Below are positions 125-37,634 of a stretch of DNA of 64,000 nucleotides, piece after piece. Within the stretch, counting starts at the first letter, position 1. Every line of letters starts with the position of its first letter. Location: contig SNVD02002448.1 of NCBI GenBank assembly GCA_013180625.2, positions 1-64,000 on the forward strand, given 5' to 3'. The notes below the pieces were generated by a model. It saw only the letters and a program-made list of their open reading frames with translations. It made no database searches and was not told where the DNA came from. Position numbers and translations under genes: made by a program. The stretch comes from Boswellia sacra. Lineage: Eukaryota; Streptophyta; Magnoliopsida; Sapindales; Burseraceae.

Positions 125-497
125 TGGTGTGGTGTTATCAAGAGTTGGAAGAAAAAGTCTTGGTGAGGTTGCTCATCAAGTAAGTTGTAAAGATTTCTAC
201 AACTTAGTGGAAAGCTTAGCTCGTGGAGCTAGGAGCCCGTGGACGTAGGCAAGGTTTGCCGAACCACGTAAATTGAGTTTGCACTCTCTCTATCCCTATT
301 CTCTTTACATTTACTTGCATTTGTGATTGTTCTTTATTTCCATTCTCTTGATTGCATTCTATTTTCATCTTCTTCACCTTTGTTCTTAAAGAAAGATTTG
401 AATAATTTTGATCTTTCAAGAAAAGTTTTACAAATCCGTTTTGATAAGTAAAAACCCAATTCACCCCCCCTCTTGGGTTGCCATACTTGGGTCAACA
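125..497 (+). repeat. Truncated Copia LTR (3' part), same family as 58564-60363
   Basis: This stretch matches the last ~370 bp of the LTR at 58564-60363 almost base for base, including the GGAGCTAGGAGCCCGTGGAC block and the end GGGTCAACA. No primer-binding site follows at 498, unlike at the complete element, so it is a solo or 3' LTR. Its 5' part lies beyond the CACTA end at 124. The five bases after it (TCCTT) would be the target duplication, but the partner is outside the window. It interrupts an ANTH exon. Confidence 0.85.
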
Positions 498-699
498 TCC
501 TTGTCAACCAAATTTATTGTACCATCACTTATAGCTTGATAGATTTTAATGCTTTCAGAAGCAACCTGTTGGCAACGACAGAAGACAATCAGAAACAATA
601 ATCACATCAAGAACATCTATACAAGCCATATGTTTAAACTTCACATACCAGTGACAGGGCCAACTGAATCACAAAATTATTAACTGCTGCTCCTTGCGG
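498..699 (-). pseudogene. ANTH-domain clathrin assembly protein (AP180/CALM-like) fragment, two exons
   Basis: On the minus strand one exon runs 699-649 and reads PQGAAVNNFVIQLALSL, followed by a GTATGT donor. The next begins at 565 after a CAG acceptor and reads VASESIKIYQAISDGTINLV before it is cut at 498 by the LTR end. These are consecutive pieces of the plant ANTH domain, which binds phosphoinositides and recruits clathrin at the membrane. Intron phase is preserved across the ~83-bp intron. Only about 40 of the ~300 ANTH residues are present, with no start and no C-terminus. It sits with other unrelated fragments on the same strand, so I read it as a captured piece rather than a resident gene. 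Confidence 0.72.
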
Positions 700-1742
700 C
701 TGTAAAAATATTTTAAAGAAGTAATCCATCAAATACAAAACTAAGAAGAAACCAAAAAATATAAACAGTTTTTTATAGGCCCAAATTGCTCAAAAATCAC
801 CATAAGTTGTACAACTATTGCATTATCAGGCAAGTTTTTGACAAATATGGAGTGACCCTTAATTGCAGAATATATAAGGAAAACATTAAAACAAGGCAGA
901 GTTTACAATTTATATAAAATGTTCAAAATCTAATAAACTCTATAATTGCATTGCTACACTTGAATTATTATGCATTTGCACAAATGATTATATACAAAAG
1001 CACTAGTCAAGAATTGAGGAATAAGTTAAATATGGAAAAATCATCAGCACTTAAAAGTCATAAAAACAGGTTATTCTAGATGCAACAGCTAAGCTAAGTA
1101 CAAGCTGAAGAATCAATCACATGTAGATCAACAAATTAAGTTACAAATATCCTAAAGAATTCACAGAAAACAAGGCTAAGAGTTAATCCTTCATGGTTAT
1201 ATTTCCTAGCTAATTAAAATACTCGGTGACCAACTAGCACTTGTATTGCAAAGAAAATTAATGTGTACAAGTCATCAATTTCTTCACTTCCCTAAGTTTC
1301 TCAGGTAAATCCTACGTGGTTGCCTCACAAATCTCGTTGCAAACAATTAAAAAATAAACAAAAAGCATCAAGAAATTATCAATTAATTAACCATATCATG
1401 AACCTAGCTATATGGCATTCTTTTTCACGTAGCACTCAAGAATTGTCCTTCAAATATTTTATAGGCCTGCAGATCAAATTAATGTGTTAGATCACAACCA
1501 TTAAATGATGGAAATGCAACAACACTTATCTAAACTTAGTGGGTGTCTTCTGCTGAACTTTTGAGAGACAAGGAAGCATAGCCATTCTGGCCTACTTTAA
1601 ATATTATTTTCTGTTAAAATCTACCGCTACCAACCAGTAGACATGCAATAACCAAATCACATAATAAGAGAGAGATATGAGGTTTTTGAAAAGTTTTGCA
1701 ATTATTGTTAAACTAACCTTATCCTATGATAATTTCAATTAC
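700..1742. other. AT-rich stretch without recognised gene
   Basis: No ORF with recognisable similarity and no repeat border is seen. The stretch lies between two captured exons on the same strand and may be captured intron or junction sequence. A short minus-strand open stretch near 1531-1595 was not identified. Confidence 0.5.
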
Positions 1743-1815
1743 CTCACATAATAGCATATCTTCCTCCGGCGACCATCCTCCTTTCTTGAAATCTGAGTTC
1801 AAGTATGTGTACCAC
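1743..1815 (-). pseudogene. FLP: FOUR LIPS/MYB88-type R2R3-MYB exon fragment
   Basis: A 73-bp minus-strand exon has an AG acceptor just before 1815 and a GTAATT donor after 1743. It translates to WYTYLNSDFKKGGWSPEEDM followed by LLCE. This is the junction of the R2 and R3 MYB repeats as found in the atypical FLP (MYB124)/MYB88 factors, which restrict divisions in the stomatal lineage; ordinary R2R3-MYBs have different residues here. The following FLP exon is not found downstream on this strand. It is a single captured exon and cannot be functional. Assignment to the FLP/MYB88 subgroup rests on recall of the family. Confidence 0.7.
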
Positions 1816-2198
1816 CTGCCAGTTTCGATATTACACCCACATCAGATTAATCTGATAATAATAAATTAAAAGAAGGGTACAAAACAGAGGATCGTTCAAC
1901 AACTTGTTTTATAACTTCTTCACCAACATTCTTCTACACTGTCTTGTTGTTTTATCTTTGAATTTAGATGCAATAATTGACCAACTGCATACAAATATCA
2001 GAACCAAAACATCGAAAATAAATAAATTACTTAAAAAAAAGAGGACAAAAACAACAGAAACATATCATTATAGAACCATATGAAAAACGATTCTTCTATG
2101 AGAAAATAGAAAAGCCCAGGTCCACATAGAGGAATAAGGCCCAAGCAAGGGAAAGAACATGAAAATGAGTTGCTGAAAATCTCAGGAGAATAACTTAC
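1816..2198. other. Non-coding stretch between captured exons
   Basis: AT-rich DNA with no recognised gene. The 73-residue minus-strand reading frame starting at 2252 is the USP exon read through into its intron and does not represent a separate gene. Confidence 0.5.
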
Positions 2199-2304
2199 TG
2201 TAAATCCAACCCTTGCAGATGGAGGCAATGTTTTGGGATAGTCTTGCATCATACACTCAAGTCGAGTTGAGGACTTTAATGCAGATTTGGTAGCATCTTT
2301 GTAT
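2199..2304 (-). pseudogene. USP: UDP-sugar pyrophosphorylase exon fragment
   Basis: A 106-bp minus-strand exon bounded by a TTGCAG acceptor (before 2304) and a GTAAGT donor (after 2199) reads [20 protein letters not shown] then [15 protein letters not shown]. The [16 protein letters not shown] core is a signature of plant UDP-sugar pyrophosphorylase, the broad-specificity enzyme that makes UDP-sugars from sugar-1-phosphates and UTP. The complete protein is about 600 residues over many exons and only this exon is present. The reading frame is clean and both splice sites are canonical, so capture was recent or the fragment is little decayed. No other USP exon was found nearby. Confidence 0.85.
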
Positions 2305-2603
2305 CTGCAATGAAACAGATTTTCAGCAACTGGTTTACTTTATATGTTGGCGTGCTAAGAGATGCTTGTCCACCACCAGCGTTACTGGTTGAAATGAGAG
2401 AGGCAGCTTGTGTAACCAGTCCATGATTGCATTACTCATCCAACTTATCTAGAGACAATGCAAATGCTTTAGCAATTCAAGCCAAACAAACATAAGCATG
2501 CTCCAACACCTACAAACACAACAAATTGCTGATGATGAATATTAAGAGAATACCAAATGGGAAGGTATTTCTCTAGTCATGAATCTATAACTTAGTATTC
2601 ATC
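2305..2603. other. Non-coding stretch with an unassigned minus-strand frame
   Basis: Around 2345-2420 the minus strand reads AASLISTSNAGGGQASLST in an open frame. I do not recognise it; it could be another exon scrap. Otherwise nothing is identified. Confidence 0.3.
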
Positions 2604-2820
2604 ATATTTGGTTGGGTAATAGATCACCTTCTTCTTTTGAAGCAATCTTGAAACTAACAACAAATTCTGGGTTAATATGGGTATTAACATTCATATTCCA
2701 AACTATATAATGTCTTGGATTTTGTGGATCATTAACTTCACTATCAAAATCCTTTTTGCTGGGATGAAATCCTCTACCTAGTAAGCCTGGATTGACATCA
2801 GTTCCAATTATTAGGCCATA
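2604..2820 (-). pseudogene. RCD1/SRO-type PARP-like domain fragment
   Basis: The minus strand from about 2820 reads GFHPSKKDFDSEVNDPQNPR, then HYIVWNMNVNTHINPEFVVS, then FKIASKEEG. The NPRHYIVWNMN-NTHI-PEFVVSFK block is diagnostic of the PARP-like domain of plant RCD1/SRO stress regulators, which have lost ADP-ribosyl transferase activity. A stop follows at 2604-2606 just beyond a possible donor. The WWE and RST domains and the rest of the PARP fold are absent. It is one exon-sized scrap on the same strand as its neighbours, consistent with gene-fragment capture. Assignment to the SRO family is firm; the exact paralogue is not determinable. Confidence 0.8.
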
Positions 2821-4256
2821 AATGATATTTAAAAATTAAAAAATAAATAACAGAAATAAGCAAAAAGCCCTATCAACCAATGAATATAGACGAATGCTGT
2901 CAAAGTTCAAGGCAAAATAATCTATAAGATAAAATTTTGGCCAGAACTGCCCATAGATTAACGTCCTCAGCATTTGCCTTAACTATTCTTGCTCAGCATC
3001 TGACAATCTATTTCACTTTCAAATAAATCCATCCTAAAAATCATAGTAGTTGCTCAACACATTGGAAGCTGAAAACAATGTGTGTGTGTGTGTGTGTGTG
3101 TGTGGAGGACCGACAAACAAACTTTCAACTATTATCATAAGATCATAAACCCATGTCCTTATTCAGATAACAACAAAATCTATTATATTCATGGAATTTA
3201 ATTAATTATGACAAGAGTTGTTGAAATATTTAATTTAGAACATTGCAATTGAGAGGTCAAAAACGGGCAGAAAAAAACTTTCCTAACTACAATTGTTATG
3301 CTTTGAGAATCCTTATTACCATATAGCTAAAGTTAGGACTACAAGACTTGTTATAACTTCTCATACTCGTAGAACCTATGTTAGATTTCCTCTCAACTTT
3401 CAATTGACTTTAAACCTGTTTTAGCTCCTAACTTCCTTTGCCGTTTAATCATAACAATAGATCAAGAATAAGATGATAAGCTAATATGAGGTGCAAATTC
3501 ACATTTCTTTTATTTTCACTATGCTTCAAGAAGAAAAAGAAAAAGACTTGCTTTATCATGACTACATGTTCCACAATCACCAATGACTAAAAGCAACACC
3601 CCACATTGGCACATTCTAATATTTCACCACATCAGTTTCTAAGGAGAAAAGTTCCCATAAAAGATTCCTATTTACGCCTATACCATCAAGTAAATTGGGC
3701 ATCTTAACAATATACTTCTGATGATTATCATTCAAAAGGTTCCATACAGCATTTAGTATCCGCAAAGTTTTAGATATCTAGTAACAATCAGAACATTCCC
3801 CTATGAAAGAAAAATAGTTTAATCACCAGAAGCTCCACTCAGTTCCTAACTATTCCGCTGAAAATAACAAAGAGACAGAAGAAAAAGAACTCAAGCACAA
3901 ATCAAGTTTCAATTTTTTTCTTATTTTGCAACGTTTTCTTCTGAACCAAAATTAACCCAGATGAGTTTGTTCAACAACACTTCCATTACACATTCAAGAA
4001 CAACAAGATCTAACCTTTACGTGATGCATTTCAGTATATATAAAATAACAATAATACAGATAGCAATACAAGGTGAGGGTAATAAGAAAACTTACAAACA
4101 GTGGTATTTTACTTACCGACTTGTAAAAGAAGCTGAAGCTGACGCAAAGAACAGAAACAGTGGCAAAATCAGAGAAAGCAAACAAAAACAATACTTGAAG
4201 TTGGGTGAAGAAGAAGGAGAATAACAAAAACCTTAACCTATCAGGCTCTGTATTTT
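2821..4256. other. AT-rich stretch without recognised gene
   Basis: It contains a (TG)13 microsatellite at 3079-3104. Two overlapping opposite-strand frames at 3961-4227 are low-complexity and match nothing I know. No element border is seen. Confidence 0.45.
3079..3104. repeat. (TG)13 microsatellite
   Basis: Thirteen uninterrupted TG units are directly visible. Confidence 0.95.
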
Positions 4257-4302
4257 AACGTTTCTGAATGGTCTGTATTTTAGTAGTCCATTCAGAAACG
4301 TT
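4257..4302. repeat. Perfect 15-bp inverted repeat (hairpin)
   Basis: AACGTTTCTGAATGG at 4257-4271 is exactly reversed and complemented as CCATTCAGAAACGTT at 4288-4302, with a 16-nt loop. A TCTGTATTTTA motif precedes the left arm and recurs in the loop. It could be the remains of a small foldback element; the stem is short for a miRNA precursor. Confidence 0.75.
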
Positions 4303-4965
4303 TCATATTATGAAAATACATGGAGATTCAGAACATAGTCAAATCCAGGGGAATGAAATAAAAAAAAAAGAAAAGTTTTTTTAGCAAATACATAATTAAA
4401 ATGACTAGAACTTGATCAGTTCAATTTCTTTCTCCATAACAAATGATACTTTTTGACATTAATAAACTTACTGAGCTTCAGACAAAATGCTATTTAAGAA
4501 TTTCATAACATAATTGAAAAAACATACAAAAGGTATATTTTAGGTTAGACTTAGTTTTATACTTCCCCTAAATTCAACTGATCTCTTATAACATAAATGC
4601 AGCTCTAGTAACTCTCAGTAAAAATGATGAGAACAAAGCTCTCAAAACCACTTTAGAAAATCAAATGGTTATACCAAGGTATTACATATTCAGGGAACAT
4701 GTGGTTAGCAATAATCATAAATCCTTATAATCCAAGCATGAGTAAATGAACAAAAGTACACATTCAAAACCTTTATTGTTCATGAGTTACCGAATATGCA
4801 ATATACATATATCAACTGATTTATAGTAATATATTGCACAAAAGAAATAAACAAATATTTGATACCTTAGAGACAAAAACACGCATGATCCATTTCCTTA
4901 GATTAGGCGTCAGAACTGGGTTCATATTAGGAAATCAACTAAATCAAGTCCATATAAATACTTAC
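4303..4965. other. AT-rich non-coding stretch downstream of the HUB1 fragment
   Basis: The sixth and later HUB1 exons would be expected here if the gene were complete, but none is visible. The HUB1 homology stops at the exon 5 donor. Confidence 0.5.
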
Positions 4966-6738
4966 CTCTAACACGTTTAAGCTCAACTTTGCCTTTTAAA
5001 TCATTGTCTTGATGGCTCTGTAGTTTCCTTGCCACTGATTTGTGCTTCAAGTGAAGATCATTTAGTGCTAATCTCAAACTTTTAACTTCTAACACCAAGT
5101 CACTAGATGACTTTTGTCTGCATGAGCCTAGCAAAATTTGCAGTGTACATGGGAAACTGAGGAACAAATCTTGCAAGAAAAAGATTACAATTTACAATGC
5201 AGAACAAATATTTTCTCACAACACTCACCATCTCCCACCACGCCTTTCACAGTAGCAGAATATAGCCCATCCTTTAGATACCACAGGTTGTCAACAGCAG
5301 CTACTCTATTACATAAGATGTTCTTAGTCTTCTCAGAGGCGATTTCTCTATCTTCTTCCATTTGATTAGGGCAATTATCTACAGAGCAACTTTCAGTTGC
5401 TCTAGTTTCTATAAGTCGACTGAGGAAAGCATCATGGGGGGATAAGGACTTCCATCTGACAATTGAATTTAAATTACAGAGAATCAAAAAAAGTAGTACA
5501 GCAGAGAGTAACAGGCAAGGAAAGCAAAGGAACCAAAAAAAAAGCGTGGTAGGTAATCTCACCCTCCTCCTTAACTGATACACATCTAAAATCTTGTCCA
5601 CTTCTTGACTCTCTTGCCCGGATAGAACATGATTCCATGTCAGTGACCAACTATTATAAAAGCATATAATCAATTTTCCATAGGGCAAAACACAACGCTG
5701 TAGGCATAAAGCCATGAGATATTGCATACTTTTATTTCAAATCTTTTCTTTTCTTTCATTCTTCTTTTACCTGTTAACTTATTTATTTTTTGCATCAAAA
5801 GAAGAAAAGTAAAATAAAAACCTAGGGTATTACCTCTTCCCAATACTTATTCACCACCTTTAATGTGGAATCATAAGGTTGTTGTCTCTCCTTCAGTTGA
5901 GTGAACTTATTATCAAGAGTAGAATACTCAATCTTCTGGGCCTCTAACTTTTGAACAAGCTTTTGATTTTGGAAGTGAAGGACAACAGTATCAAGCTGCA
6001 TTATGAAAAAGAAAAGGTTCAAACAAACAAGTTGTAATAGAAGAAAGTAAATCACGGCAACAACCGAACTAATCACAAAAAATTAGTAAACAAAAACTTT
6101 TTCTTATATTAATCAAAAGAAATGCCTCCAAACAAATTATCCCAACAAACATACAGCCTGCTACACAGTCAAAATTGCTATAACAAAAAAGGAGGTCATC
6201 ACGTAAAAATGGATACATTCTCCACGTCTGCTGATATATTTCATAAATAAATGAATCATGGCGAAGTTGTCCCAGTTACAAGCTAAAGAAAACACACTCA
6301 AATTGAAAAGAGGCATTCAATTCACAGCGCAACTAAAATTTGAAGCTTGAAAAAAGTATCATTACAATAACTCAACATTGAAATACCAACCACAAATATA
6401 ACAGAAATTCAATAACTACTCTTCAATTGAATCAATAAAGCAAATATAACTAAAAAAACATAGAATTTCCTAATTGTTTTATTAATCCCAAATCCAAAAC
6501 CTTAGAAACGCAATCAAGAAACACTCAAAAACTGAAAATTACAAACGAAGCATCAAAATCAGTCAGGTAGCAAAGCAAAACACACAAATGAACAACAATC
6601 AAAAGAAAAAATATAGAAGAAACGTACCTTTGTGTCCTCGGATGAAGGAAAAAATGGATGCTTCTTAGCGGTAGCGGCAGTTGGTGATATGGAACTGAAG
6701 TGGAGCCATTTTCGGGCTGGCTGACCTGTGCTCCCCAT
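4966..6738 (-). pseudogene. HUB1: HUB1-like E3 ubiquitin ligase (BRE1 type), first five exons only
   Basis: Five minus-strand exons with canonical GT-AG borders can be placed: 6738-6628 (starts MGSTGQPARKWLHFSSISPT), 5995-5834 (LDTVVLHFQNQKLVQKLEAQ), 5650-5563, 5455-5229 (LSRLIETRATESCSV) and 5127-4966 (LVLEVKSLRLALNDLHLKHK ending ELKRVRG). They match in order the N-terminal ~230 residues of plant HUB1, which with HUB2 monoubiquitinates histone H2B through a C-terminal RING. The coiled-coil middle and the RING (about 650 residues) are absent. Exon 4 has a one-base frame shift next to the G6 run at 5436-5441, between DGSP and HDAF. The other exon phases agree. It is 5'-complete, 3'-truncated and flanked by unrelated gene fragments on the same strand, so it is best read as captured. 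A transcript would give at most a short non-catalytic peptide. Confidence 0.88.
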
Positions 6739-7649
6739 TGAAACGCACAATTATTTAAAATTATTTGGCATATACAAAAATTATTTAAAGAAAAAACCTT
6801 AATGTTCAACAAAAACCTTAATGGCAAGGTTAAGATGGATTCAACTGGACTTGTATGCCCACACAGGCTCTGTATTTTAACATATACAAAAATTATTTAA
6901 AGAAAAAACCTTAACCTCTCATATTCTCCAATAATTCCGCATCAGGCAGTTCCAAAAAAACTACCAAACATGTAAATAATCTAGACAACAACACTAAGCA
7001 AACAACAAAATTCAAGCTTAAACTTCAAAAGATTAAATAAAATTTTATTTGAAAATAAAATACATTAAAAAAATAAAAAAAGCAAATGAGGATACACAAC
7101 TTATATCCATGCTTGGCCATTCAGAGAAACCTGAAGCAATACCAGATTCCAGTGTTGTTTGTGAGCACCTGAACAAAACAGAAACTTCAATTCACTTTAT
7201 CTTCCACGTGACGCCACCAAGTGGGAGCTTTCTCAAGATTCAAATAGCAACAAATATTTGAAATTAAAAAAACCTAACACCATTTCACTTCAATGGATTC
7301 TACATTTGTATTTAAAAAATTAAAATTTGTGGATATTGATACACTACATTGTTATCAAGTTATTGCCTACACAAAAATTAAAAATTGTCACCAAAATTTC
7401 CCAGAAATTAAAAAAAGAATTACGAAATCATATTTGAAAGAAAAAATAATAAACCCATTAACAATAAAGAGAAAATAAAAAATAAAAAAATCAAGATTTA
7501 ATTTCTTACTCTTTCCTCCACTTTCTCAACCACCAAACAAGAAGATTATGCAACACAAGACAAATCTATCAGAGAAGAGACATAAAAACAAGAGAAAAAG
7601 GGTACTTGACAAGTTTGATTGCGGGTGTATGGGTTTCTTAGGATTCGAC
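6739..7649. other. Upstream region of the HUB1 fragment, no gene recognised
   Basis: The ~35-bp sequence ATATACAAAAATTATTTAAAGAAAAAACC occurs twice (about 6771 and 6882), so a local duplication is present; AGGCTCTGTATTTTAAC at about 6864 also occurs near 4243. A minus-strand stretch near 7080-7170 (ESGIASGFSEWPSMDISC) may be another exon scrap but is unidentified. Confidence 0.4.
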
Positions 7650-7888
7650 AAACCTCTCCAATAGCACCCTTATAAGAAACTCGTTGTGATCCCACACCAC
7701 CCTTCTTGGATTTCGATTTAGGAGCAACAGCTATAGCATAGTCACTTATGCTTGAGAGGAAGTAAGCAAAGGAAGTAATGCACGCATGGTGGAAGGTGAG
7801 GTGAGGGGGAGTGAGAGAAGGGGAACTTGGAGGTGGATTGGTGAAGAGAAGAGCAGCGGAATGTGGATGCGAGGCTGCATGAAGCCAT
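7650..7888 (-). pseudogene. Unidentified gene 5' end with plastid-transit-like N-terminus
   Basis: An ATG at 7888 opens a 48-codon frame starting MASCSLASTFRCSSLHQSTS and rich in Ser, Pro and His, with few acidic residues. That is the composition of a chloroplast transit peptide. It stops at 7742. A second frame then continues with SDYAIAVAPKSKSKKGGVGS and QRVSYKGAIGE, suggesting one frame shift in a formerly continuous exon. I do not recognise the protein. It lies between the CACTA end at 8197 and the HUB1 fragment, on the same strand as all the other captured pieces. Confidence 0.4.
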
Positions 7889-7974
7889 ATGTTAGGGCTT
7901 CAAAGGACAGGAGCGAGAGAGGAGATAAGGAAACCCAAAAGTGAAGAGCAAAATGAGGTGAAGAAGTGAGACGG

Positions 7975-8197
7975 CTAGGGCAAAAGTGTGGGAAGGTTTT
8001 TTCTTTTTATTATATGTATATACTTGTCACAGATATGAGAACGTGATAAATATGATTTTGAAGTCAGGACAAAAAATGCCAAATATGAGTAATAAGAGAG
8101 TTTGACCTCCAAACAAGTGTTGTAGTTATCACCATTTAAAAAAACTGTCAAATAAGAAAAATTGAAATTGTCAAATATGTGAAAATTTCTTGTAGTG
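7975..8197. mobile_element. CACTA terminus and subterminal region (element X)
   Basis: The sequence ends ...ATTTCTTGTAGTG at 8197; read on the minus strand the element begins CACTACAAGAAATTTTCAC. The ~220 bp inside it is clearly related to 10735-10955 (shared CACTACAAGAA end, TGACAAATAT and ATATACTTGTCA motifs), so both belong to one family. The three bases outside (TTG) would be the target duplication. The end lies 11 bp beyond an SPS exon. The partner end was not found to the left within the window. Confidence 0.78.
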
Positions 8198-8208
8198 TTG
8201 AGACTTAC

Positions 8209-8945
8209 CTCTATGACTGCGAGACTGAATGGTTCCACAAGAGCTGGGTTGATGAAAACACCCTTTAAGAGACAAAGCTACCAGAAGTATTATTGTTAGT
8301 AAATTTAATATTGAAAGGAACCAAAAGAGTTCAAATTCGTCTAAGCTGATAATTTGTCAGTAGTGAGCTGCATAGATCCAGGATAACGAGCACTCTTCTC
8401 CATCTTTGGTCATCACTATCATGATTGACCAAAAGTTGCAGCAAATCCCATTTACAACCCTTTGTGTGTAGAATATTCTATGACTATGATAAATGCTTAT
8501 GGGCCTAATTTAGCACTATGAACATACCTTAGTTTTTGCAACCAGGCCATAAATGTCAGGAACTTCAGTTTGCTTATGATGCTTGGGATGAGCCACTTGA
8601 CCATACAAGTCATACTTGTCAATGAGCTTGAGTACTGTTGTAAGAACAACTGAGCTGCTATTAGACATCTCTTCAATATCATCTTTGTTTCCCAGTATAA
8701 GTGTCTGCAGCAGTAAAGATTTTCAGAATCAGTCATCAAATTAACTTGGAATTTATCTATTGTCTTAAAATCCCTTTTGAATGATAGATCATTGAAGTCA
8801 AAGACATAATTACCAAGTTGGCTAGCTCCCGGAGGGGCTGGCACTCCCCAAAAGCCTTGAGCAATGTGGTGACATTTTTCTTGTTGTCAGGACGTGACAA
8901 TGCAAGTATAGTTCGCTTGTGAGGGTTTATGAAAAATCGCATTAT
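8209..8945 (-). pseudogene. SPS: Sucrose-phosphate synthase fragment, three consecutive exons
   Basis: Minus-strand exons 8945-8814 ([20 protein letters not shown], ending [12 protein letters not shown]), 8704-8528 ([40 protein letters not shown]) and 8262-8209 (GVFINPALVEPFSLAVIE) have clean GT-AG borders and compatible phases. They encode 121 residues of the GT-B glycosyltransferase domain of plant SPS, which makes sucrose-6-phosphate from UDP-glucose and fructose-6-phosphate. The segment covers the nucleotide-sugar-binding region before the E-x7-E motif; the usual PFGLTLIEAAAHG reads PFSLAVIE and then meets the donor. The next exon is absent because a CACTA end lies 11 bp into the intron. 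Upstream exons are missing as well. The fragment has no stops or frame shifts. Confidence 0.9.
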
Positions 8946-9514
8946 CTGAAAAGTGTTTAATAGCACCAACTCAATGACTCCCTAAATCTTTCAATTAAAA
9001 TGATTAATGGCCAAGAACTTACATCTCATCTTCAATCAAAACTTTGAAGCACCTTCTGTACAACAAAGCTAAAGTGAACAGAAGTATGGTATAAATTTTC
9101 CTGTCTCTAATAGGATAAGTTTTGAAGAAGCCTGAGCAATACGCTGGCTCAGCCCTGCTGAATGTTACATTGTCTTTTGTTCTGGCTTCAGGTAAGCAAA
9201 TAATTAACTAACACAGCAAAAGCCAAACTCAAATTACCAATTAAATCAACCATTTACAACATTAAACTTTCATTATTGGTCTATGAAAATGAAAACTTTC
9301 ATAGAACCACAACCTAAACCATAACCTACAGCCACCAATAGAATGAAGCACATAACGACAAACCTAAAAGACTTTTAAAAATTTGAACTTTCTTTTCAGT
9401 TTTGACAGAAACGAAACATGGTTTACTGCTCATGAAAAAAGACAACAACTTGAAACATACCAGATGAGAAAAACAAGATCTGAACAAAACCATTTAATCT
9501 TATTTCAAGTTTAC
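8946..9514. other. Non-coding stretch between SPS and DUF1218 fragments
   Basis: No gene recognised. The position is compatible with captured intron or junction sequence. Confidence 0.45.
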
Positions 9515-9601
9515 CTTAATCCCTGTAGCTTTTGCAGTGAAACCAGTCGTAGCAGACAACAAGCCTAAGAAACCAACAACGCTGCACAAAATAAAAGCTT
9601 T

Positions 9602-9610
<9 letters not shown>
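9515..9610 (-). pseudogene. DUF1218 family (plant four-TM membrane protein) first exon
   Basis: An ATG at 9610 opens a 32-codon exon reading MERKAFILCSVVGFLGLLSA then TTGFTAKATGIK, with a GTAAAC donor at 9514. The hydrophobic run at residues 6-24 is the signal/first membrane segment of the DUF1218 family, whose members sit in the endomembrane system and some of which affect lignin and wall traits. The later exon with the other membrane segments is not found. A CT microsatellite directly upstream on the minus strand is in the expected 5' UTR position. It is a 5'-complete, 3'-truncated fragment like HUB1. Confidence 0.7.

Positions 9611-9636
<26 letters not shown>
9611..9636. repeat. (CT)13 microsatellite
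   Basis: An uninterrupted CT run directly next to the DUF1218 ATG; on the coding strand it is a GA tract in the leader. Confidence 0.93.
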
Positions 9637-9805
9637 ATCGCACACACTCAAAGCTTGTTGCTTTCTCTCTCTTGCTAAAATTTTGGTGGGTTTGTCTGAA
9701 GGTGAAGCGTAAAGTTGGTCAGATTACTATGCAAGTGAAAGTGGTGCATGAATGGAAATTATGATGTCAAATTGATAGCAATTATGGAAATGTAAGAGAA
9801 AGATA

Positions 9806-10243
9806 TCACAGTTTCATTAAGAGAGAAGAGTGTTTAACCTCAGACCATATCACGAGTAGGTGCCTTTTGTTCTGGGTTCTATCAGAGCCAATCAATGACT
9901 TCAGATCAGCTTCATTGTCTGATGAAGCTTCATTTTCCAACCACTCCTGCACGATGTTCACCTCGCACTCTGTAAAGCACGCGTCGATCTCTTCAAGCCG
10001 GTGAGAGGCCGGGTCCATGAGCCCCTGGTTCGTCAGGGCTTTCAAGAGAGTCTGCCCCAATGGCCCCACGATCTCGCACTTCTGGCCCGCGGGGTCCATT
10101 GCGAAGAGCTTAATGATTCTGTCTGCGACTTTGGCGGAGGAACTGGTGGCGGAGGACCGAGACATTAGGTATTGGGAGCGGAGGGAAAGAGATGGAAGCC
10201 GGTGAATTTGGGAGGAGAGCTTTTGAACGGTGGCTACAGCCAT
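9806..10243 (-). pseudogene. Mitochondrial 2Fe-2S ferredoxin-like protein (complex I C1-FDX type), C-terminally decayed
   Basis: From the ATG at 10243 the frame reads MAVATVQKLSSQIHRLPSLS (basic, serine-rich, mitochondrial-presequence-like) and then KVADRIIKLFAMDPAGQKCE, LGQTLLKALTNQGLMDPASH and a CFTECEVNIVQEWL segment. This matches the plant ferredoxin-like family related to C1-FDX, a component of the bridge between the complex I membrane arm and the carbonic anhydrase domain. Family members are about 155-160 residues and end with a conserved Gly-Cys-Gln-Val...Trp-Asp region. Here residues after ~95 (ENEASSDNEADLKSLIGSDR) diverge and the expected C-terminus is missing, so the gene is truncated or frame-shifted. 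It is on the same strand as the SPS and DUF1218 scraps and lies inside the CACTA end at 10955. Confidence 0.68.
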
Positions 10244-10734
10244 CCGCCAAAGCGCGTTTTCTCTGATAGGTGTGGTTTGAGAGGGGAAAGCGAGGAGGTA
10301 AAGAGACTTGAGGAGGCGAACGGGACATCGAGAAGTGGGCTTTCTTCCAACTCTTGTTTTCTAGAAGATAATAGTGGGAAAGTTTGATAAAGGGTTCTGT
10401 TCTAAAGATGCGAATGTGGAAAAGAGAAACCCAAACTTCGTCTATAGCATATGTCCTCACTTTGAAAATTAAACAATGTAATTTTAATTACTTTAAAAGT
10501 ATAAAATAATTTATTTATTTTATACAATTTTCATATTTAAAATTTACTTCTTATTAATTTGATTTTAAAAATTTATTATTTAATTTATATAAAAATATTA
10601 TCTTCTATTTAAATATTTTTAAAAATTATTTTTAATTAAATATTAAAACATAAAATTGTATTATTTAATTATTATTTTGAGATTTTTTTACTTCTTTATT
10701 TGTTAAAATTTAAAATATTATATTCATAATGCTT
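10244..10734. other. Upstream region of the ferredoxin-like gene
   Basis: It is GC-richer up to about 10460 (leader/promoter side of the gene), then abruptly very AT-rich to the CACTA subterminal region. The composition break near 10465 is a candidate capture junction. Confidence 0.4.
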
Positions 10735-10955
10735 GAAAGAGAAGATGAAAAATGTGAGAGAGAAATGGGTAAGATTACATATTTATATACTTGTCATATT
10801 TTTATAAAAAATATGAAAAATATTTGATTGAATAAAGACAAAAGTGACAAATAAGATGAATAGGCAGGTTTGACTTTTTATATTTATCACTTTTTTAAAA
10901 AAATGCCAAATAAAAAAATTATAAAGTGACAAATATATAAAAAATTCTTGTAGTG
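10735..10955. mobile_element. CACTA terminus and subterminal region (element Y)
   Basis: The sequence ends ...AAAATTCTTGTAGTG at 10955 (minus strand CACTACAAGAATTTTT). The inner ~220 bp resembles the element X end at 7975-8197, including ATATACTTGTCA and AAGTGACAAATATATAA. The three bases outside are ATT. No left partner is seen in the window. Confidence 0.75.
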
Positions 10956-11864
10956 ATTTGTATTAATATTTCATCTAGTTAATCAATCAACAAAACCCCC
11001 CATTTATTCTGTTTTCGCTTTCGAATAACAAATTTAATTAGAATCAATCCTCGTGGGAACGATATCTACTTATCACTTTATTACTTGTGCGACTAGTATA
11101 CTTGCTAGTTTCGAACGCATCAGCTTTAATAATACTACATTTACAAAGTCTATATATAAAGTTAATATAACATCAATAATGCAATGTCATATGACAACAC
11201 ATATTACATTGATAACTCATATCAATCTTTTCAATTGTTTGATATTACATCAATTTTGTATATAAAATTTGTATACAGATTTTGTAAGTGTAGCATTACT
11301 CCTACTAGTATAAGTCATAAATTAATGTGCAATGTGGCACATATGCATAATAGTAATACAAGTACAAGTAATTAATATGCCTATGGTGACGTTTATAACT
11401 GATCTTGTCTTAATCCACAGTTTACTTTTTTTTCTCTTCGGTAATAATATAATAATTAAAGTGTCATATTTTGATTAATCATGAAAATCAATTATAAATA
11501 ATAATTTTTTACCATTTACTTCAAGAGAGTTAAGAGTACCCTGTGAATACTATGTTCTTTCTTTCCCTCAATTAACGATTAAAATATATATATAACGATC
11601 ACGGATTTGTAGATATAGAAACTAATTTATCTTCACCATTACAAAATAAACATAACTATAAAGATTCCTGATTCATCCTTAACTTAATTTATACTCTTTT
11701 GATTCCAATATTGGATTGGCGTCAACTTTAGTTTTAGAAATCAGTTTTATGTATTATCTCAAAATTAATGTATAAGATCTCCACCAGACAAATTTTTTTT
11801 GGAATTAATTGTTTATTTTTTCTTGAGTCTACAACGGAACTGAGACATAATAATAATAATAACA

Positions 11865-13594: not shown

Positions 13595-16500
13595 ATGGCT
13601 GTTTTTTTCTTAATTTTGGAATATTTGGATAGTGAGTATCCAGTAGGAGATGTAGACCATGACAAAGTTAGTTTAATAGGGTTGTTTCAAGCTACTCTAC
13701 ATCTTTGCAAATTAGAGATTGTAGATCATACAGATGTCAATTTCTTTGTCAGTTTACCATGGAATGGATAGAAATATCTCATTGATAGTGACTCTAAGTT
13801 CTTGCAGTTGTTACATATGTATGAAATTAATGGTTTGACTGAATTAAAAATCATAGTTGAGATTATTACCCACGATATTGACCCACTAGCAAAGATGTTA
13901 CCCGATGACTTAGGAGGAAATGAGCCACCACAGATAGAGTTGCCAGGTGTTGTAATGAATTCAAAAAATGAGAATGAAACTGAGTTGCCAAACCTTGAAA
14001 AAAATGCTTAAGCTGTACCAACTTCACCCATGTCACCTGATATAGTTCAAAAAGAAGTTAATGAGATAGAAATTGAGAGCCAAAACTTAGAAAAAAATCC
14101 AGTAAATGAACCAACAAATGGTGATTTATCCCCTACAGGGCTTGAAAGAGTTAGTGAGGTTGAAACTGGGTTGCCCAACTCAGTAAAAAATGCTTTTGTA
14201 GAACCATCATCTAGTGAGTTACCTGCTGCATGTGAGAAAGAAGTTAATGAGCATGAAAATCAATTGCCCAACTTAGAAACCAATGCAGAGACTCATCCTA
14301 TAGAACCTGAGATGCCTAATGTAGGTGAAACAGAGTTGTCTAACATTAATCTAAATGAAAATATGAGTGAAGGGTTAGTAGGATAGTCAATAGGGCATAG
14401 TGAATATGACATAGATACTGACTTTGATGCAGATTATAGGCCAGAAGATAGTGTGGAGTCTCAACATGATGATGCATGGGTAGACAGTGGTAGTGGGAGT
14501 AGTGGTGAAGAGGAGTCAGCTGATGATAGCTCACATTACCAAAGTGATGGTAAGAATTTTCAAAAACTAGTTAGTGGTTCAGATGAAGAAGAAGTAGGTA
14601 GTGCTAGAATGGCAAGGGTACACAGGCAAAAATTATTTAATGAGGGCTTAGGTGGTGAGATTATATTAAGGGTGGGGCAAACTTTTGATAATCTGAACCA
14701 TTTTCGACAAGTACTAAAAGAGTACTCAATTAGGAATGGTATAAAGCTTAAAAGAGTGAAAAATTATAGGGATAGGGTTACTTGTAAGTGTGCTACACCA
14801 AAATGCTATTGGAGGATTCATGCCTCTAAAACTCAGGACCTTGTAACATTCCAAATCAAGACCTATTATCCTGAACATAAATGCTCAAATGTACCTGACA
14901 CCCCTGAGTGCCCCTATGCTTGGATTGCTAAAAAATATGAGGATCATTTTAGAGAAAATCCAAACTTAGGTGTATACTGGTTAGAGAAAGATTTGAATAG
15001 AAGATTTGGCTTTGAATCTTCAAAACAGAAACTGTATAGGGCTAGAATGCATGCTCTTCAAATCATAGGTGAACACCATCAGAAAGCCCATAATTTATTA
15101 CATAAATATGCAAATATTGTCCAGCTTACAAACCCAGGGTCTACTGCCTATGTGAGGGCAAATGCTGAAATGATATCTGCTTCACCAAAATTTCAAGGCT
15201 TTTTTATTAGTTTTCCTTCTCAGAGGAAAGGGTTTGTTGAGGGTTGTAGGCCTTTTATTGGTGTAGATGGGTGTCACCTAAAGGGTCTACTAGGAGGGGT
15301 GCTTTTAGCTGTTGTGTCAATCGATGCCAACAATGGTATGTTCCCTCTAGCATTAGGAGTTTGTGAGGTGGAGTGTACATCAACTTGGAATTGGTTTCTT
15401 CAATTATTAGGAGAACACATAGGAGGGGTTGATGGGTGTGGACTGCCTATGACTTTCATGAGTGATAGGCAAAAGGGTATTTTTAATGCTTTAAATGAAC
15501 AATGGCCATATGCATCATCAAGGTTTTGTGGTAAACACTTGTATGATAATTTCAAGAAAGGACATAGTGGACCAGGTTTACAAGTATTATTCTGGAGGGC
15601 ATGCAAGGCAGCCAATACCCTTGACTTTAAAACTGCCATGGAGGAAATCAAAGCTGTAGGTGCTTTTGACTATTTGTCAAAGATTCCTATCACCAGTTGG
15701 AGTAGACATTCGTTTGATGAAAGGGTCAAAGTTGATTATGTTATAAACAACATTACAGAGTCATTCAACTCCTGGATCAATAGACATAGAAGTCAAACTT
15801 CCCTGAGCATGCTAGAGGACATCAAAAGGAAGATAATGAAGAGGATGCAAAAAAAGTATCTTTTTTATTCCAATAGTGTACACTGTTTCCAATAGTGTAC
15901 ACTGTTTTCTTAATACTTTTGACATTTTATGTCATTTTGATTATTTTGTTCATTTTTTAATTTAATTAACAGGTTTAGAGAATGTATGAAGTGGCATGGT
16001 GATGTGGGTCCCAAGATCAAAACCATTGTTAGTGAGAGGGGGAAATCGAGGAGAGTGATGGAGGTGATGTGGTGTGGAGATTTCGAATTTGAAGTGGTTA
16101 ACAGAGGGAGGGTGTATATTGTGAGGTTAAATGAGAGATTTTGCTCACATGGACTATTTCAAATATCTGGAATCCCTTGTACACATGCAATTGCTACTAC
16201 AAATGAGAGGAGAATTGATGTACATCAATTTGTAGGTAAGATATTGTCGAGGGATATGTATATAGCATCATACAACCTCTACATAAGGCCAATTCCAGAC
16301 TAAAGTGAATGGCCAGAGGCGGCTTGTAATAACTTGGAGGCTCCCAAGATCAGAACCAAAGCAGGCAGGCCAAAGAAAGCAAGGAGGAGGGCAGCGGATG
16401 TACCCAGCCGATCAGGCTTTCCTTTGTTTACAATGAAGTGCACAAATTGTGGTGGCTACAACCATAATAAAAAAAGTTGCAAGTCTGCCCCATAGCCAAA

Positions 16501-26299: not shown

Positions 26300-26830
26300 G
26301 GTCGGGTGTATCGGGTTGACATCCGACACTCGACACTTACATGTCGAGTCGTGTCAGATTCACAACCGACACTCGATATTAGTTTATTTTGGATGACATC
26401 GAGTGTCGGACGTATCAGATATCTATTTTTGAAGACATCGAGTGTCGGATGATGTATCCGACACTCGACACTTACATGTCGAGTCGTGTCAGATTCACAA
26501 CCGATACTCAACACTTACATCTCGAGTCGTGTCGGATTCACAACCGACACTCGATATCAGTCTATTTTGGAAGACATCGAGTGTCGGATGCATCATCTAA
26601 CACTCGAGACTTACATGTTGAGTGTCGGATTCACAACCGACACTCGATATTAGTGTATTTTGGAAGACATCGAGTGTCAAATGATGCATCCAACACTCGA
26701 CACTTATATGTCGAGTCGTGTCGAGCTCTATCGAGCGCGTCAAGTTTTGTCGAATTTTGTCGAGCGTTTTTGTTGTTTGCTTGTTTTAGCTTTGTTTTTT
26801 TTGCCTTTTTGCATCATATTGAACTATAAC
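26300..26830. repeat. hAT left subterminal repeat array
   Basis: About four imperfect units of roughly 100 bp built from short palindromes (GACATCGAGTGTCGGATG, CCGACACTCGACACTTACAT). The several overlapping frames here are artefacts of the repeat. The array ends in a unique TTTTGTCGAATTTTGTCGAGCG block. Confidence 0.88.
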
Positions 26831-29570: not shown

Positions 29571-30162
29571 AACTGGTAAAATAAAATTAGTTTATTCATG
29601 AATAAGAAGTGTAAATATTCCCTTGCAACCAGCAAGCGTATTAAATGCATTAAGATAAAATTGAAACAGCAAGCAATCTATGCAACCGGCAGGCGGCAAG
29701 CATTTTAAATGCATTAAGATAAACCCTTTGTTTACTTACACTTAATTTCTTTCAAACCCAAAATTGATCCAATCCAATCCAAACCAATAAACCAATACAG
29801 ACATATAAATTGAAGAAATCCTGAATTGAAGAATAATTAATTGACTGTGATCAAATTTTGGCTTCACAAAGACATGGAACTTTACCTAGTCAAAGAGACA
29901 AACAAGACTCCAACTTACGCGCGAAACAAACGAACAAGGTGGAGACTTGGAGTCGTGGCAACTGGCGAGCCACTATCGGCCTCTGAGGTTAACTGTGATC
30001 GAAATATAGTCACCGGCGCGTTGAAGTGAGGTAGTGAGAGACGTTGAAGAGGGGATGTTGAAGTCGGCTCGGCCGAGAGAAAATTGAAATTCAGTAAGAT
30101 GTGAGAGACGAGTAAATATACGATAATTACATGTGGTGAGGTCTACAATAAAATTTTTGGAA
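29571..30162. other. hAT 5' region
   Basis: Non-coding region between the transposase start and the right subterminal array. It contains a duplicated AGCAAG...TTAAATGCATTAAGATAAA motif (about 29630 and 29700). Confidence 0.5.
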
Positions 30163-30530
30163 GACATCGAGTGTCGGATACATCATCCGACACTCGACAC
30201 TTGCATGTCGAGTCGTGTCGGATTCATAACCGACAATCGATATCAGTCTATTTTGGAAGAAATCGAGTATCGGATGATGCATCTGACACTCGACATTTAC
30301 ATGTCGAGTGCCGGATTCACAATCGACATTCGATATCAGTCTATTTTGGAAGACATCGAGTCTCGGATGCATCATCTGACACTCGACACTTACATGTCGA
30401 GTCTTGTCAAGCTCTATCAAGCGCGTCGAGTTTTGTCGAATTTTGTCGAGCGTTTTTGCAGGTTGCTTATTTTAGGGCTTTAGCTTTGTTTTTTTGCCTT
30501 TTTGCATCATATTTAATTTAACTATAACCA
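30163..30530. repeat. hAT right subterminal array, in direct orientation to the left one
   Basis: The same units as 26300-26830 (TCTATTTTGGAAGACATCGAG, CCGACACTCGACACTTGCAT) and the same exit block AGTTTTGTCGAATTTTGTCG...TTTTTGCATCATATT occur here in the same orientation as on the left, whereas the TIRs are inverted. Confidence 0.85.
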
Positions 30531-32428: not shown

Positions 32429-32799
32429 CACTACAAGAAAAACAGTTTTTTGCGACAAAATTTTTTGCGACGAAATAAAATTCGTCGCAAAAAGCGGCCT
32501 TTTGCGACAAAATTATAATTTCGTCACAAAAGTTAGCATTTCAAAAGAAAAGATATTTTGCGAGGAATTTTTCGTCGCAAAATAAAACCTTTAGCGATGA
32601 ATATTCATTTCGTCGCTAAAAACTCTAGTGACTAATTAGGGAAGCATTTTTTGCGACGATATAAAACCTATTGCGACAAACTTTTCATCGCAAAACGTAT
32701 TACACGAAGATGGGATTTTGTGACAAAAATTTTATAGCAACATGAACATTTTTTGCGACAAAATTATATTTCTCGCGAAAAAAAGACCTTTTGCGACAA

Positions 32800-34040
32800 A
32801 AAATTCCCCGCTAAAAGCCATTCTAATTTACCATGCATATATGGCAATACTAGACATTTTGCGACGAAAAAATAATTCCTCGCAAAATGTGACCTTTTGC
32901 GAGAAAAATTTTCTCGCACAAAATTGATTTTTTGCGGCAAAAAATCTATTTTTTGCGACAAAACATTCCCCGCGAAAAGCCATTTTAATTTACTATGCAC
33001 ACGTGGCAATACTGGACCTTTTGCGACAAAAACGTGATTCCTCGCAAAATGTAACTTTTTGCGAGGAATTTGTTGTCGCAAAAGGTCCATTATTTTGCGA
33101 CAAAGCATTCCTCGCGAAAAGCCATTTTAATTTACTATGCACACGTGGCAATACTGGACCTTTTGCGACAAAAACGTGATTCCTCGCAAAATGTGACTTT
33201 TTCCAAGGAAAATTTTCTCGCAAAAAATATGTTTTTTTGCGACAAAAAATTCCTCGCGAAAAGCCATTTTAATTTACTATACACACGTGGCAATATTGGA
33301 CCTTTTGCGAGAAAAACGTGATTCCTTGCAAAATGTCACTTTTTGCGAGGAATTTTTTGTCGCAAAAGGTCTATTTTTTTGCGACAAAACATTCCTCGCG
33401 AAAAGCCATTTTAATTTACTATGCACACGTGGCAATATTGGACCTTTTGCGAGAAAAACGTGATTCCTCGCAAAATGTCACTTTTTGCGAGGAATTTTTT
33501 GTCGCAAAAGGTCTATTTTTTTGCGACAAAACATTCCTCGCGAGAAGCCATTTTAATTTACTATGCACACGTGGCAATACTGGACTTTTGCGACAAAAAC
33601 GTGATTCCTCGCAAAATGTCACTTTTTGCGAGGAAGTTTTTGTCGCAAAAGGTCTATTTTTTGCGACAAAACATTCCTCGCTAAAAGCCATTTTAATTTA
33701 CTATGACATTTTGCGACAAAAGCGTGATTCCTCGCCAAATGTGACTTATTGCGAGGAATTTTTTGTCGCAAAAGGTCTATTTTTTGCGACAAAACATTCC
33801 TCGCGAAAAGCCATTTTTATTTACTATCCACACGTGGCAATACTGGATATTTTGCGACAAAAACGTGATTCCTCGCAAAATGTGACTTTTTGCGAGGAAT
33901 TTTTTGTCGCAAAAGGTCTATTTTTTTGCGACAAAACATTCCTCGCGAAAAGCCATTTTAATTTACTATGCACACGTGGCAATACTGGACCTTTTGCGAC
34001 AAAAACGGGATTCCTCGCAAAATGTCACTTTTTGCGGGGA
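32800..34040. repeat. 141-bp tandem array within the CACTA
   Basis: About nine units carry the landmark AAGCCATTTTAATTTACTAT(GCACACGTGGCAATACTGGA) at ~32817, 32981, 33122, 33264, 33405, 33547, 33687, 33810 and 33953, spaced 140-142 bp, with one ~123-bp unit and a more diverged first unit. Each unit holds several TTTTGCGAC/GTCGCAAAA hairpin halves. Long frames on both strands (up to 280 codons) have the same ~47-codon period and no protein-like features, so they are by-products of the array. Confidence 0.93.
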
Positions 34041-34169
34041 AAATTTTCTCGCAAAATATTTCTTTTTGCGAGGAAAATTTTCTCGAAAAAAATATACTTT
34101 TTGCGACAAAAAATAGACCTTTTGCGACAAAAAATTCCTCGCAAAAAGTTATTTTTTTAAAATTAAAAC

Positions 34170-36170
34170 TTAATAACTATCTTCTTTTGTTTTCTTCTCT
34201 TTGTTTATGATTCGTCTAATATATAAGTCTTTGTTTAAAAAATGACTAAAAAAAAGAATAAAGAAAGTATTAAAAATCTAATTTGATTTTATATAAATTG
34301 ATAATTTTTAAATATAGTAGGTCCATTTGGATATTCATATAAATTTTTATTAAAAAAAAAGACCATTTGTGATTCCATTCATGCTTTTAAATGTGAAAAA
34401 CTATTAAGATTAGTATTTGTAAAAGAGATAAATAATTAAAATAAACTCTATATATGTGTGTGTATGTGTGTGTGTGTGTGTGTGTGCGTGAGTGTGTGTG
34501 TGTGTGCGTGCGTGTGTGTGTGTGATATGAATCGTTAATAATCCAATAATCAAGCATAAAATTTATTGCTAATTATTTATATATAATCTAATTTATGTAT
34601 GATTTATATATGTCTAACTGCTAAATTACAATTATGATAAACTTATTACTATGACTAATTTTTAATTGATGAAAACGAGATTGGAAAAAAAATCCAACTT
34701 CTAAAAATCTAATTTATTTTTCAATGTTAATTATATGTCAAATAAACATAAATAAATAAATAATTAATAATCATGTAATGTTGCCTATAATTATGTTTTT
34801 TATTTTTTTGTTATAAAGTGTATTAATTTAGATAGTATATTTTTCTTAGACTTTTAATTTTTATCGTATAGCTTTGAGTAAATTGTTGAGATATTTTAAT
34901 CAATTGTTAGGGTTTATTTTAAGGGAGATAAATAATTAAAATGAACTCTATAACAAAAAATAAATACATTTGTTACATATTGATTACTATATGAATAATT
35001 AATCATTTACTGGTAAATGGCAAAAACTAATTTTCAATTCGTAATACATATGATACTTGTAGCATATGTATATGTATATATGTCTAATAATTAAATTACT
35101 TATATGAAAAAAATATTTTTTATAATTGTAAAAAATATTTTTAATAATTGTTATTTTTATAAAAAAATGGATAATTAATTTAAAGGCATTCTATACTTGA
35201 AAATAAATGCAATTTGTTACATTTTTATATAATTATAATATGAATAAGTAATCATTTACTAATCAAATTAGAAAAGCTTATTTTCAATTTCTTATAACAA
35301 CAAATATGACATATATAGATATCTAATTATTAAATTACAACTATTACAAACTTATGGTTTGCATTTGTCAAGATATTTTAAATATTAATTGTTAGCATTT
35401 GTAAAATGAATAAATAATAAAAAAATATTCACTAAAATTAAATGCATTTGTTACATAATAATTATAATATGAATATTTGATCATTTATTTATTAAAGTAT
35501 TAAAAACTTATTTTCAATAACTCGCACACGACAATTATGTCATATGTATAGATGTTTAAGTATTATGCATTTATTAATGATAGTTGAATTGTGTGTATTT
35601 TGTTAACACTTTAATACATATGACAATTATGACATACGTTTATATGTTAATAATTAAATTATCTCCATCACAAATTAATTTTTTAAATTTGTAAAACATA
35701 TTTTTAGTGTTTTTAAAAGAAATAGATAATTAAAATAAATTATAGCTAAAATGAATAGAATCTTTTTGTTACATATATGATTATAATATCAATAATTAAT
35801 TATTTATTGATCATTAAAGAAATTTATTTTTGTAATTCTTCATATAACAACTATGACATATGTATAAATGTCTAACTATTGTTTACATTTGTTAAATAAT
35901 TCTTGAGTTGTTGTACCTATTTTATTAACATTTTAATACTCAATAAAAATAATTAAATACCATATAATGTTTTATATTTCTATTGTATATGGTTGTTATA
36001 TTATTTATTAATTTGTCATCAAATTATTTAATACCAATCCAATATTATATAAGTTTAATTATGAATGAAAATTTAATTAATAAATAAACTTATAATTATC
36101 CAAGTCTAAGTATTGTTTATTTAAATATTTTTAATTTTAGATTTAGATTTTAATTTTAATATTTTTTTAA
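34170..36170. other. AT-rich interior of the CACTA
   Basis: About 2 kb of very AT-rich DNA with no gene. It contains an interrupted GT microsatellite (34454-34524) and repeated phrases such as ATTTGTTACATA and TATGTATAGATGTCTAA(C/T)TATT spaced a few hundred bases apart, suggesting an old diverged tandem array. Confidence 0.55.
34454..34524. repeat. Interrupted (GT)n microsatellite
   Basis: About 70 bp of TG units with occasional C or A substitutions. Confidence 0.93.
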
Positions 36171-36174
36171 GACT

Positions 36175-36530
36175 TTTTGCGACAAAATTTTTGTCGCAAA
36201 AGATTAGAATTTTGTCGCTAAAGATTAGCATTTTAGACTTTTAGCGACCACTTTAAAATTCCTCGCAAAATGGGGTCTTTTGCGAGGAAAATTTAAATCC
36301 AAATTCGTCGCAAAAACTAAATTTTAGGCGGACTTTTTCCCGCCTATTAAATTTCAAATTTTTACACCTTTAGCGACAAAAACTTTGTCGCTAAAGACCA
36401 AAATTTTGTCGCAAAAAGAAAATTTTAGGCGGACTTTTACCCGCTCTATTTATTTCATATTTTTTAAATTCTTTTACGACAAATTTTTCGTCGCAAAATG
36501 TCCAAATTTCATCGCAAAAAATCAATGCCT
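36175..36530. repeat. Internal GTCGCAAAA/TTTTGCGAC array of the CACTA
   Basis: Repeated TTTTTGCGACAAAA, TCGTCGCAAAA and AATTTTAGGCGGACTTTT blocks. The GGCGGACTTTT...CCCGC motif is present twice. Confidence 0.8.
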
Positions 36531-36534
36531 TTAT

Positions 36535-37080
36535 TATATATACACCACCTAATTCTTTGGTTTACTTCATTTTCTTTCATCTATTCTACTTTCCTCTTCA
36601 TTTTCATTTTTATCTACTTCTCTTCTTTCCCTAACACTATTATCAAGGTAAATATTTTTACTCATTTTTTCTTTTATGTTGTAATATATTTACTTTCAAG
36701 ATTCATATAATTTTTATTTTTTAATTGTCAATTAATATTATGCTTTTTTGTTTAATAGGTATTTTGGAAGAGGGAATGCAATTAAAAATCTTAAGTTCTT
36801 TATTTCTTTAACATTTTTTTTTGTATACACTTATCTCTCATATCCTATATTATTACTAATTAATATTTTACTTCTTTTTTGTTTTTAATAGGTATAATTG
36901 AAGGTGTGGTACATTTGAAGACTTGAAGATTGATATAAAATCAAGAAACAAAAAATTTAGTGGAGGATGAAGTTTTGTATTTGTTGTATTATCTTGTTTT
37001 TTTATTTTTTTTATTTTTCCATGTACAACCAAAGTTCCAAGTTGTATTAAATTTTTGTAATTTGTTATTATTTAATAAAA
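36535..37080 (+). other. Possible spliced non-coding transcript of the CACTA 3' part
   Basis: Splice-like borders are visible: CTATTATCAAG|GTAAATATTT, TTTAATAG|GTATTTTGGAAGAGGG and TTTTTAATAG|GTATAATTGAAGG, ending near an AATAAAATTATT polyadenylation-like signal. The short frames have no recognisable protein. It may be what is left of a CACTA gene. Confidence 0.3.
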
Positions 37081-37631: not shown

Positions 37632-37634
37632 CAA

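Follow-up and report, generated by a model that had tools for sequence, protein, structure and literature searches.

Fragments of at least eight host genes beside two related CACTA ends in Boswellia sacra: probable parts of nested or fused Pack-CACTA elements

Positions 498 to 10955 of a 64,000-nucleotide stretch of Boswellia sacra DNA (contig SNVD02002448.1; the whole stretch is called the window in the following) carry an array of host gene fragments on one strand together with two related CACTA-type ends. This array is probably the right-hand part of two related non-autonomous Pack-CACTA elements, which are nested or fused. Eight donors are firm by homology: genes for a ferredoxin, sucrose-phosphate synthase (SPS), HUB1, SRO, UPL3, UDP-sugar pyrophosphorylase (USP), a MYB protein and an ANTH protein. 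A sequence-only reading of the same DNA had described positions 498-8197 as one CACTA-bounded chimera with five or six donors in 7.7 kb. Its multi-donor character stands, but the UPL3 exon, a possible RRM exon and the whole 8197-10955 half had been missed.

Results

Two CACTA ends of the same orientation

Ends of the TTGTAGTG type are found at 8197 and 10955, both pointing the same way and 2,758 nucleotides apart. Terminus A (8012-8197, minus strand), where the sequence-only reading had already seen a CACTA end, reads CACTACAAGAAATTTTC on the minus strand and is supported by this end motif and by its likeness to terminus B (10779-10955, minus strand), which reads CACTACAAGAATTTTTT on that strand. 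The two align with 69% over 189 columns (E 9e-14), and their last 78 nucleotides are 79% alike. A ATTTGNCA-type subterminal motif, selected after inspecting the very ends that were scored, occurs three times per 200 nucleotides at each of the two ends, compared with 0.25 per kb in 11000-64000, 0.27 per kb in 498-7997 and 0.78 per kb in 8198-10755. Both ends thus have the subterminal repeats that are expected of CACTA elements.

Terminus A lies 11 nucleotides past an SPS exon border with a GT donor, i.e. inside an SPS intron. The right flanks are TTG (8198-8200) for terminus A and ATT (10956-10958) for terminus B. To the right of terminus B, LTR-like sequence (LTR, long terminal repeat) at 10956-11130 was seen by eye; we take its motif AATCCTCGTGGGAACGATATCTACTTATCAC to be that of an LTR, and the outer element may therefore sit in a retrotransposon. 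A transposase domain was found neither in ten plus-strand open reading frames (ORFs) nor in the three minus-strand frames of 400-10200, the latter being a weak search which missed known fragments too.

Gene fragments on the minus strand

Between the two termini, SPS is represented by three exons with their introns (8209-8946, minus strand; exons at about 8946-8814, 8702-8527 and 8262-8209). They match TIGR02468 with E 2e-69, contiguously over profile positions 470-590 across all three exons, and their borders read AG/GT; the score of 234.5 bits lies below the full-length cut-off of 1143.95, as a fragment would be expected to do. Nearer to terminus B, the first exon of a complex I ferredoxin (NDUFX, presumably C1-FDX) at 10243-9932 on the minus strand starts at an ATG and stops after residue 104, with matches to NDUFX (8e73, E 2.3e-37) and AT3G07480 (7aqq, E 6.9e-31). 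A first exon with a GT donor at 9610-9515 (minus strand, ORF from ATG to AAG/GTAAAC) may belong to a DUF1218 protein, and a piece at about 9931-9830 gave no match in Pfam or protein-homologue searches.

To the left of terminus A, the fragments follow from right to left in the order ATG-bearing piece, HUB1, SRO, UPL3, USP, MYB, possible RRM and ANTH, all on the minus strand. The ATG-bearing piece adjoining terminus A (7891-7640), which had been taken for a transit-peptide-like start, matched nothing in Pfam, protein-homologue or TIGR-profile searches, and a piece at about 7190-7100 was without a match in Pfam and protein-homologue searches. The HUB1 block (BRE1-like E3 ligase; 4965-6738) contains exons 1-5 with introns, as located by tblastn of homologues P0001-P0007. 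These seven, out of 120 listed homologues, each match these five exons and nothing beyond them, which in P0001 corresponds to residues 1-251 of 872. The listed homologues are the best 120 of 2474 matches, and those with names are HUB1/BRE1-type or hypothetical proteins; the closest relatives among them come from Pistacia (72%), an assembly protein (71%), Melia (69%) and Citrus (68%), and full-length HUB1 is present in Pistacia, Melia and Citrus. The spliced reading is broken by a frameshift where exon 4 begins, which rules out a functional HUB1 copy. Farther left, an exon at about 4110-4240 has the appearance of a 5′ untranslated region.

The SRO piece (2605-2790) corresponds to the C-terminal part of an RCD1/SRO PARP-like protein, with 5ngo (E 2.5e-11) and 7plq (E 4.8e-9) as best matches. 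The exon of the E3 ligase UPL3 (2510-2341) was identified by protein homologues including P0243-P0245 and P0285, the last of which is named UPL3-like; tblastn of the homologues shows that it is interrupted by two in-frame stops. A single USP exon (2306-2197) with canonical AG and GT matches MbUSP (E 9.9e-10); in the same search the top row is a designed repeat protein, none of whose single stretches passed. The MYB gene (1743-1984) is present in two pieces, 1984-1925 and 1814-1743, which match Pfam Myb_DNA-bind_6 (E 1.7e-10) and MYB chains (E 3.4e-17); the donor of the first piece is displaced from its expected position.

The two ANTH exons (clathrin assembly; 498-703, exons at 703-649 and 564-498) are contiguous in the Pfam profile over positions 174-212 (E 1.5e-6). 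The Pistacia protein P0242 matches with 97% over 14% of the query and the PDB search gave only E 0.76; the second exon is truncated by an LTR. Between MYB and ANTH, a possible RRM exon (860-769), perhaps G3BP-like, matches Pfam RRM_1 with E 0.004, below the curated cut-off and not far from the noise of our plus-strand control (best E 0.014). Its PDB matches are other RRMs with E of at least 0.0099, and it is absent among 50 protein-homologue matches.

The five HUB1 exons, the RCD1/SRO piece, the single USP exon, the two ANTH exons and their common strand had all been named by the sequence-only reading and are borne out by these searches and by the homologue alignments. For its FLP/MYB88 exon the MYB repeat holds, but there are two pieces instead of a single exon, and the narrow name FLP/MYB88 is presumed.

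Introns, splice borders and strand

Introns with AG/GT borders are kept in the SPS, HUB1, MYB and ANTH fragments. A canonical AG or GT stands at 26 of the 33 expected borders (15 acceptors, 18 donors), in a count that was judged by eye and takes in the DUF1218-like and RRM exons; the seven exceptions comprise the two borders each of SRO and RRM, the first MYB donor, the ferredoxin end and the LTR-cut end of ANTH. The introns and splice borders that are kept point to capture from DNA, and processed pseudogenes were therefore rejected. That the array consists of separate retro-inserted gene copies, which the sequence-only reading had named as one finding that would speak against it, is very improbable: nothing was found in its favour, and the introns of SPS, HUB1, MYB and ANTH contradict it for these four, the single-exon SRO, UPL3, USP, RRM and ferredoxin fragments not being covered individually.

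Under random orientation, the chance that eight firm donors share one orientation is 2 x 2^-8 = 0.008; it becomes 0.004 when RRM is added and 0.002 when DUF1218 is added too. For this count the plus strand was inspected less closely than the minus strand. As a plus-strand control, ten ORFs of the longest class in 498-10955 gave five sub-threshold Pfam matches (best E as given above) and none above the cut-off. In addition, tblastn with 57 proteins (the seven HUB1 homologues and 50 others) at E 1e-3 found matches on the minus strand only; all 50 matches of the second protein-homologue search fall on exons of ANTH or UPL3. Both controls favour families already found and could have overlooked fragments of other genes on the plus strand. 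A Pfam search of entire minus-strand frames, in which stops were written as X, yielded one weak match (DUF3915, E 0.043) and missed known fragments too; Rfam at the gathering threshold gave no match in the window. Arrays that are readable in a single direction may survive longer.

The common strand of the identified exons and the many intact splice borders could also indicate a transcribed and selected chimeric gene, or an antisense or decoy regulator of the donors, and ATG-bearing first exons do stand close to both termini (ferredoxin at 10243, the piece at 7891). The HUB1 frameshift, the two UPL3 stops and the LTR-cut second ANTH exon argue against such a function. Furthermore, only about 33 nucleotides separate the UPL3 donor from the USP acceptor, which is too short for a plant intron, so that this pair is hardly able to splice together. 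We regard a selected gene or regulator as improbable. With HUB1 and UPL3 broken in their reading and the left side cut by an LTR, cargo is favoured over a gene, and most likely the array has no present role beyond that of decaying cargo.

Borders of the HUB1 block

The three longest exact direct repeats in these 10.5 kb, low-complexity runs excluded, measure 34, 18 and 14 nucleotides, and every one of them lies at the borders of the HUB1 block. The left border (4226-4302) carries the 14- and 18-nucleotide repeats and a hairpin (4257-4302). These two repeats recur at 6904 and 6864 in the right border (6764-6918), which also holds both copies of the 34-nucleotide repeat, at 6769 and 6881. Of 200 Markov-2 simulations, two reached a longest repeat of 18 nucleotides and none one of 34. 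From their sequence, the border repeats look like templated filler of break repair. A 15-nucleotide perfect inverted repeat around the USP exon (2168-2182 / 2317-2331) is possibly another repair trace.

Filler-like repeats and a hairpin would also be expected if the fragments were patches of chromosomal double-strand-break repair, placed there without transposon carriage and with the CACTA ends only accidentally nearby. Repair-linked gene duplication beside CACTA insertions is reported from wheat (PMC4290129). Eight or more donors, all oriented alike and next to two related CACTA ends, would hardly arise from random repair, and we consider this explanation unlikely.

The left side of the array and the case for two elements

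The array is cut at 498 by the 3′ part of a copia-family LTR (125-497), which is 94.6% alike to 59993-60363; the alignment stops at 497. Several points weigh against two Pack-CACTA elements. A plus-strand scan of the window for a left end, which in these elements has the form CACTACAAGAAA, found none with fewer than four mismatches in 17 to either terminus. Therefore neither element is complete in the window, and the block that had been called CACTA-bounded has its left limit at the LTR. The divergence of about 20-30% between the termini suggests that they are old or belong to different subfamilies. Of ten donor labels two, RRM and DUF1218, are weak, the latter being an identity that we assume and that no search bore out: the exon has neither Pfam nor protein-homologue support, though proteins of 148-470 amino acids were admitted. 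As for the repeats, one of 60 Markov-1 simulations reached 20 nucleotides, and the 34-nucleotide repeat, lying within one border, could represent a later local duplication. Finally, the donors are recognised through proteins of other species and through profiles rather than through parental copies in the same genome.

Plant Helitrons typically hold co-oriented fragments of several genes with introns. A Helitron could thus have taken up the fragments, one or two short CACTA elements having merely inserted into it, and this would agree with the position of the inner CACTA end within a captured intron and with the lack of a left CACTA end in the window. A simple scan of 498-10955 on both strands for a perfect GC-rich stem followed by CTRRT found none. 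The identified fragments stop about 0.5 kb inside the 10955 terminus, and the ATG-bearing piece begins about 0.3 kb inside 8197. A Helitron origin is therefore rather unlikely, if somewhat less so than repair patches.

Other elements in the window

The window is transposon-rich plant DNA. Positions 1-124 represent the right end of a third CACTA-type element inside the copia LTR, with TTGTAGTG at 117-124 and no match elsewhere in the window; comparison by eye with the LTR copy near 59993 gives TGG as a candidate 3-bp duplication. The copia element at 59993-63492 consists of the LTR part (59993-60363) followed by gag/pol-like ORFs (60619-63492), which were named by eye. Tandem 64-nucleotide units occupy 59792-60047, and the 13-nucleotide sequence TTGTAGTGTGGTG is found at 59738-59750 and at 117-129, each time adjoining an LTR of the one family; 59745 may be a further CACTA end.

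A further stretch, 32429-39156, has a CACTACAAGAAAAA left end, a TTTTCTTGTAGTG right end and tandem arrays of TTTTTGCGACAAAA type; its flanks, CAA and ATA, mismatch as a duplication. A related 93-nucleotide unit occurs in two arrays (26458-26716 and 30155-30402), perhaps the subterminal repeats of another CACTA element. In addition, a long ORF at 14387-15895 encodes a MULE transposase (nearest Citrus 40%, Acer 44%), and a 227-amino-acid ORF on the minus strand at 53903-54586 resembles, by eye, a piece of an F-box-associated protein. Taken together, the MULE matches and the closest HUB1 relatives place the host probably within or close to the Sapindales.

Discussion

Pack-CACTA or Pack-TYPE elements are described as having CACTACAA termini and carrying host coding DNA, with several loci per element (PMC8903248). 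The array carries such host DNA. CACTA capture of several host gene fragments, as the sequence-only reading had proposed, remains the best reading, and the introns and splice borders support capture from DNA. Its single capture in a single element finds no support: a second related CACTA end follows to the right, at least two donors lie between the ends, and HUB1 has filler-like borders of its own, so that several rounds of capture are likely.

In the arrangement that we favour, the outer element, ending at 10955, would carry the ferredoxin and SPS fragments and perhaps the DUF1218-like one. The inner element, ending at 8197, would sit in the intron of the SPS fragment and carry HUB1, SRO, UPL3, USP, MYB, ANTH and perhaps RRM. 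The fragments may have been taken up from DNA over several rounds, each time that gap repair following a transposon cut switched templates and was aborted. A CACTA transposase from elsewhere would have mobilised both elements, and the copia insertion presumably came later and removed the left side.

The closest precedent is Tgm-Express1 of soybean, a CACTA element that carries exon and intron pieces from five unrelated host genes (PMC1947982). Both are CACTA systems with pieces of several genes; Tgm-Express1 lies in an intron and its captured exons are spliced, at least twelve distinct transcripts being reported from the allele, eleven of them with captured exons (PMC1947982). They differ in that Tgm-Express1 is a complete 5.7-kb element with transcripts shown, while the array has at least eight donors and two related termini and includes no complete element in the window. 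The word orientation does not occur in the main text of that paper (PMC1947982), and orientation is not part of the comparison. By analogy with Tgm-Express1, exons with intact borders could still splice into chimeric RNA if the array is transcribed.

For Pack-TYPE elements it was proposed that neighbouring insertions of the same orientation are mobilised jointly and enclose the DNA in between (PMC8903248). In that model, as described there, internal ends are deleted or mutated, whereas the internal right end at 8197 looks intact. Because this end seems intact and an internal left end is not seen, plain nesting fits at least as well.

The Tpn1 family of Ipomoea nil likewise comprises non-autonomous CACTA elements with captured genic regions and subterminal repeats; it is described with one case of a chimeric transcript and with both terminal repeats and 3-bp duplications known (PMC5105172), whereas the array shows one side of each element. 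Capture of genomic DNA (with the intron kept in Ds2-22), filler and template switching are reported for Ds and for animal Pack-TIRs (PMC3260210, PMC8277862); these are hAT and animal elements, and our filler reading rests on the repeats. CACTA capture is also described from wheat chromosome 3B with 140 events (PMC4290129), from grapevine, where one PPR piece is opposite in orientation to the transposase gene (PMC2528002), and from Chenopodium (PMC8978399). The array had been called a striking case. Its multi-donor capture stands, but with Tgm-Express1 (PMC1947982) and the Pack-TYPE elements (PMC8903248) as direct precedents this has to be toned down: the kind is already known, and what makes the array a rich case is how many donors it has and that its termini are doubled.

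For annotation the locus is a warning, as conserved exons of many real genes in series do not make a gene here. How cut-and-paste transposons capture unlinked gene pieces is debated, and a yet undiscovered mechanism may exist (PMC13317346). The array, which combines eight or more donors with an internal terminus and filler-like borders, could be used to order the captures and to weigh the neighbouring-insertion and gap-repair models against each other. Tentatively, and with less than even confidence, we suggest that the locus preserves intermediates of Pack-CACTA growth, with related termini of the same orientation, fragments on both sides and HUB1 borders bearing templated filler. If true, this would directly link the capture of genes by CACTA elements with template-switching gap repair, and it would account for a stepwise one-strand array of eight to ten donors.

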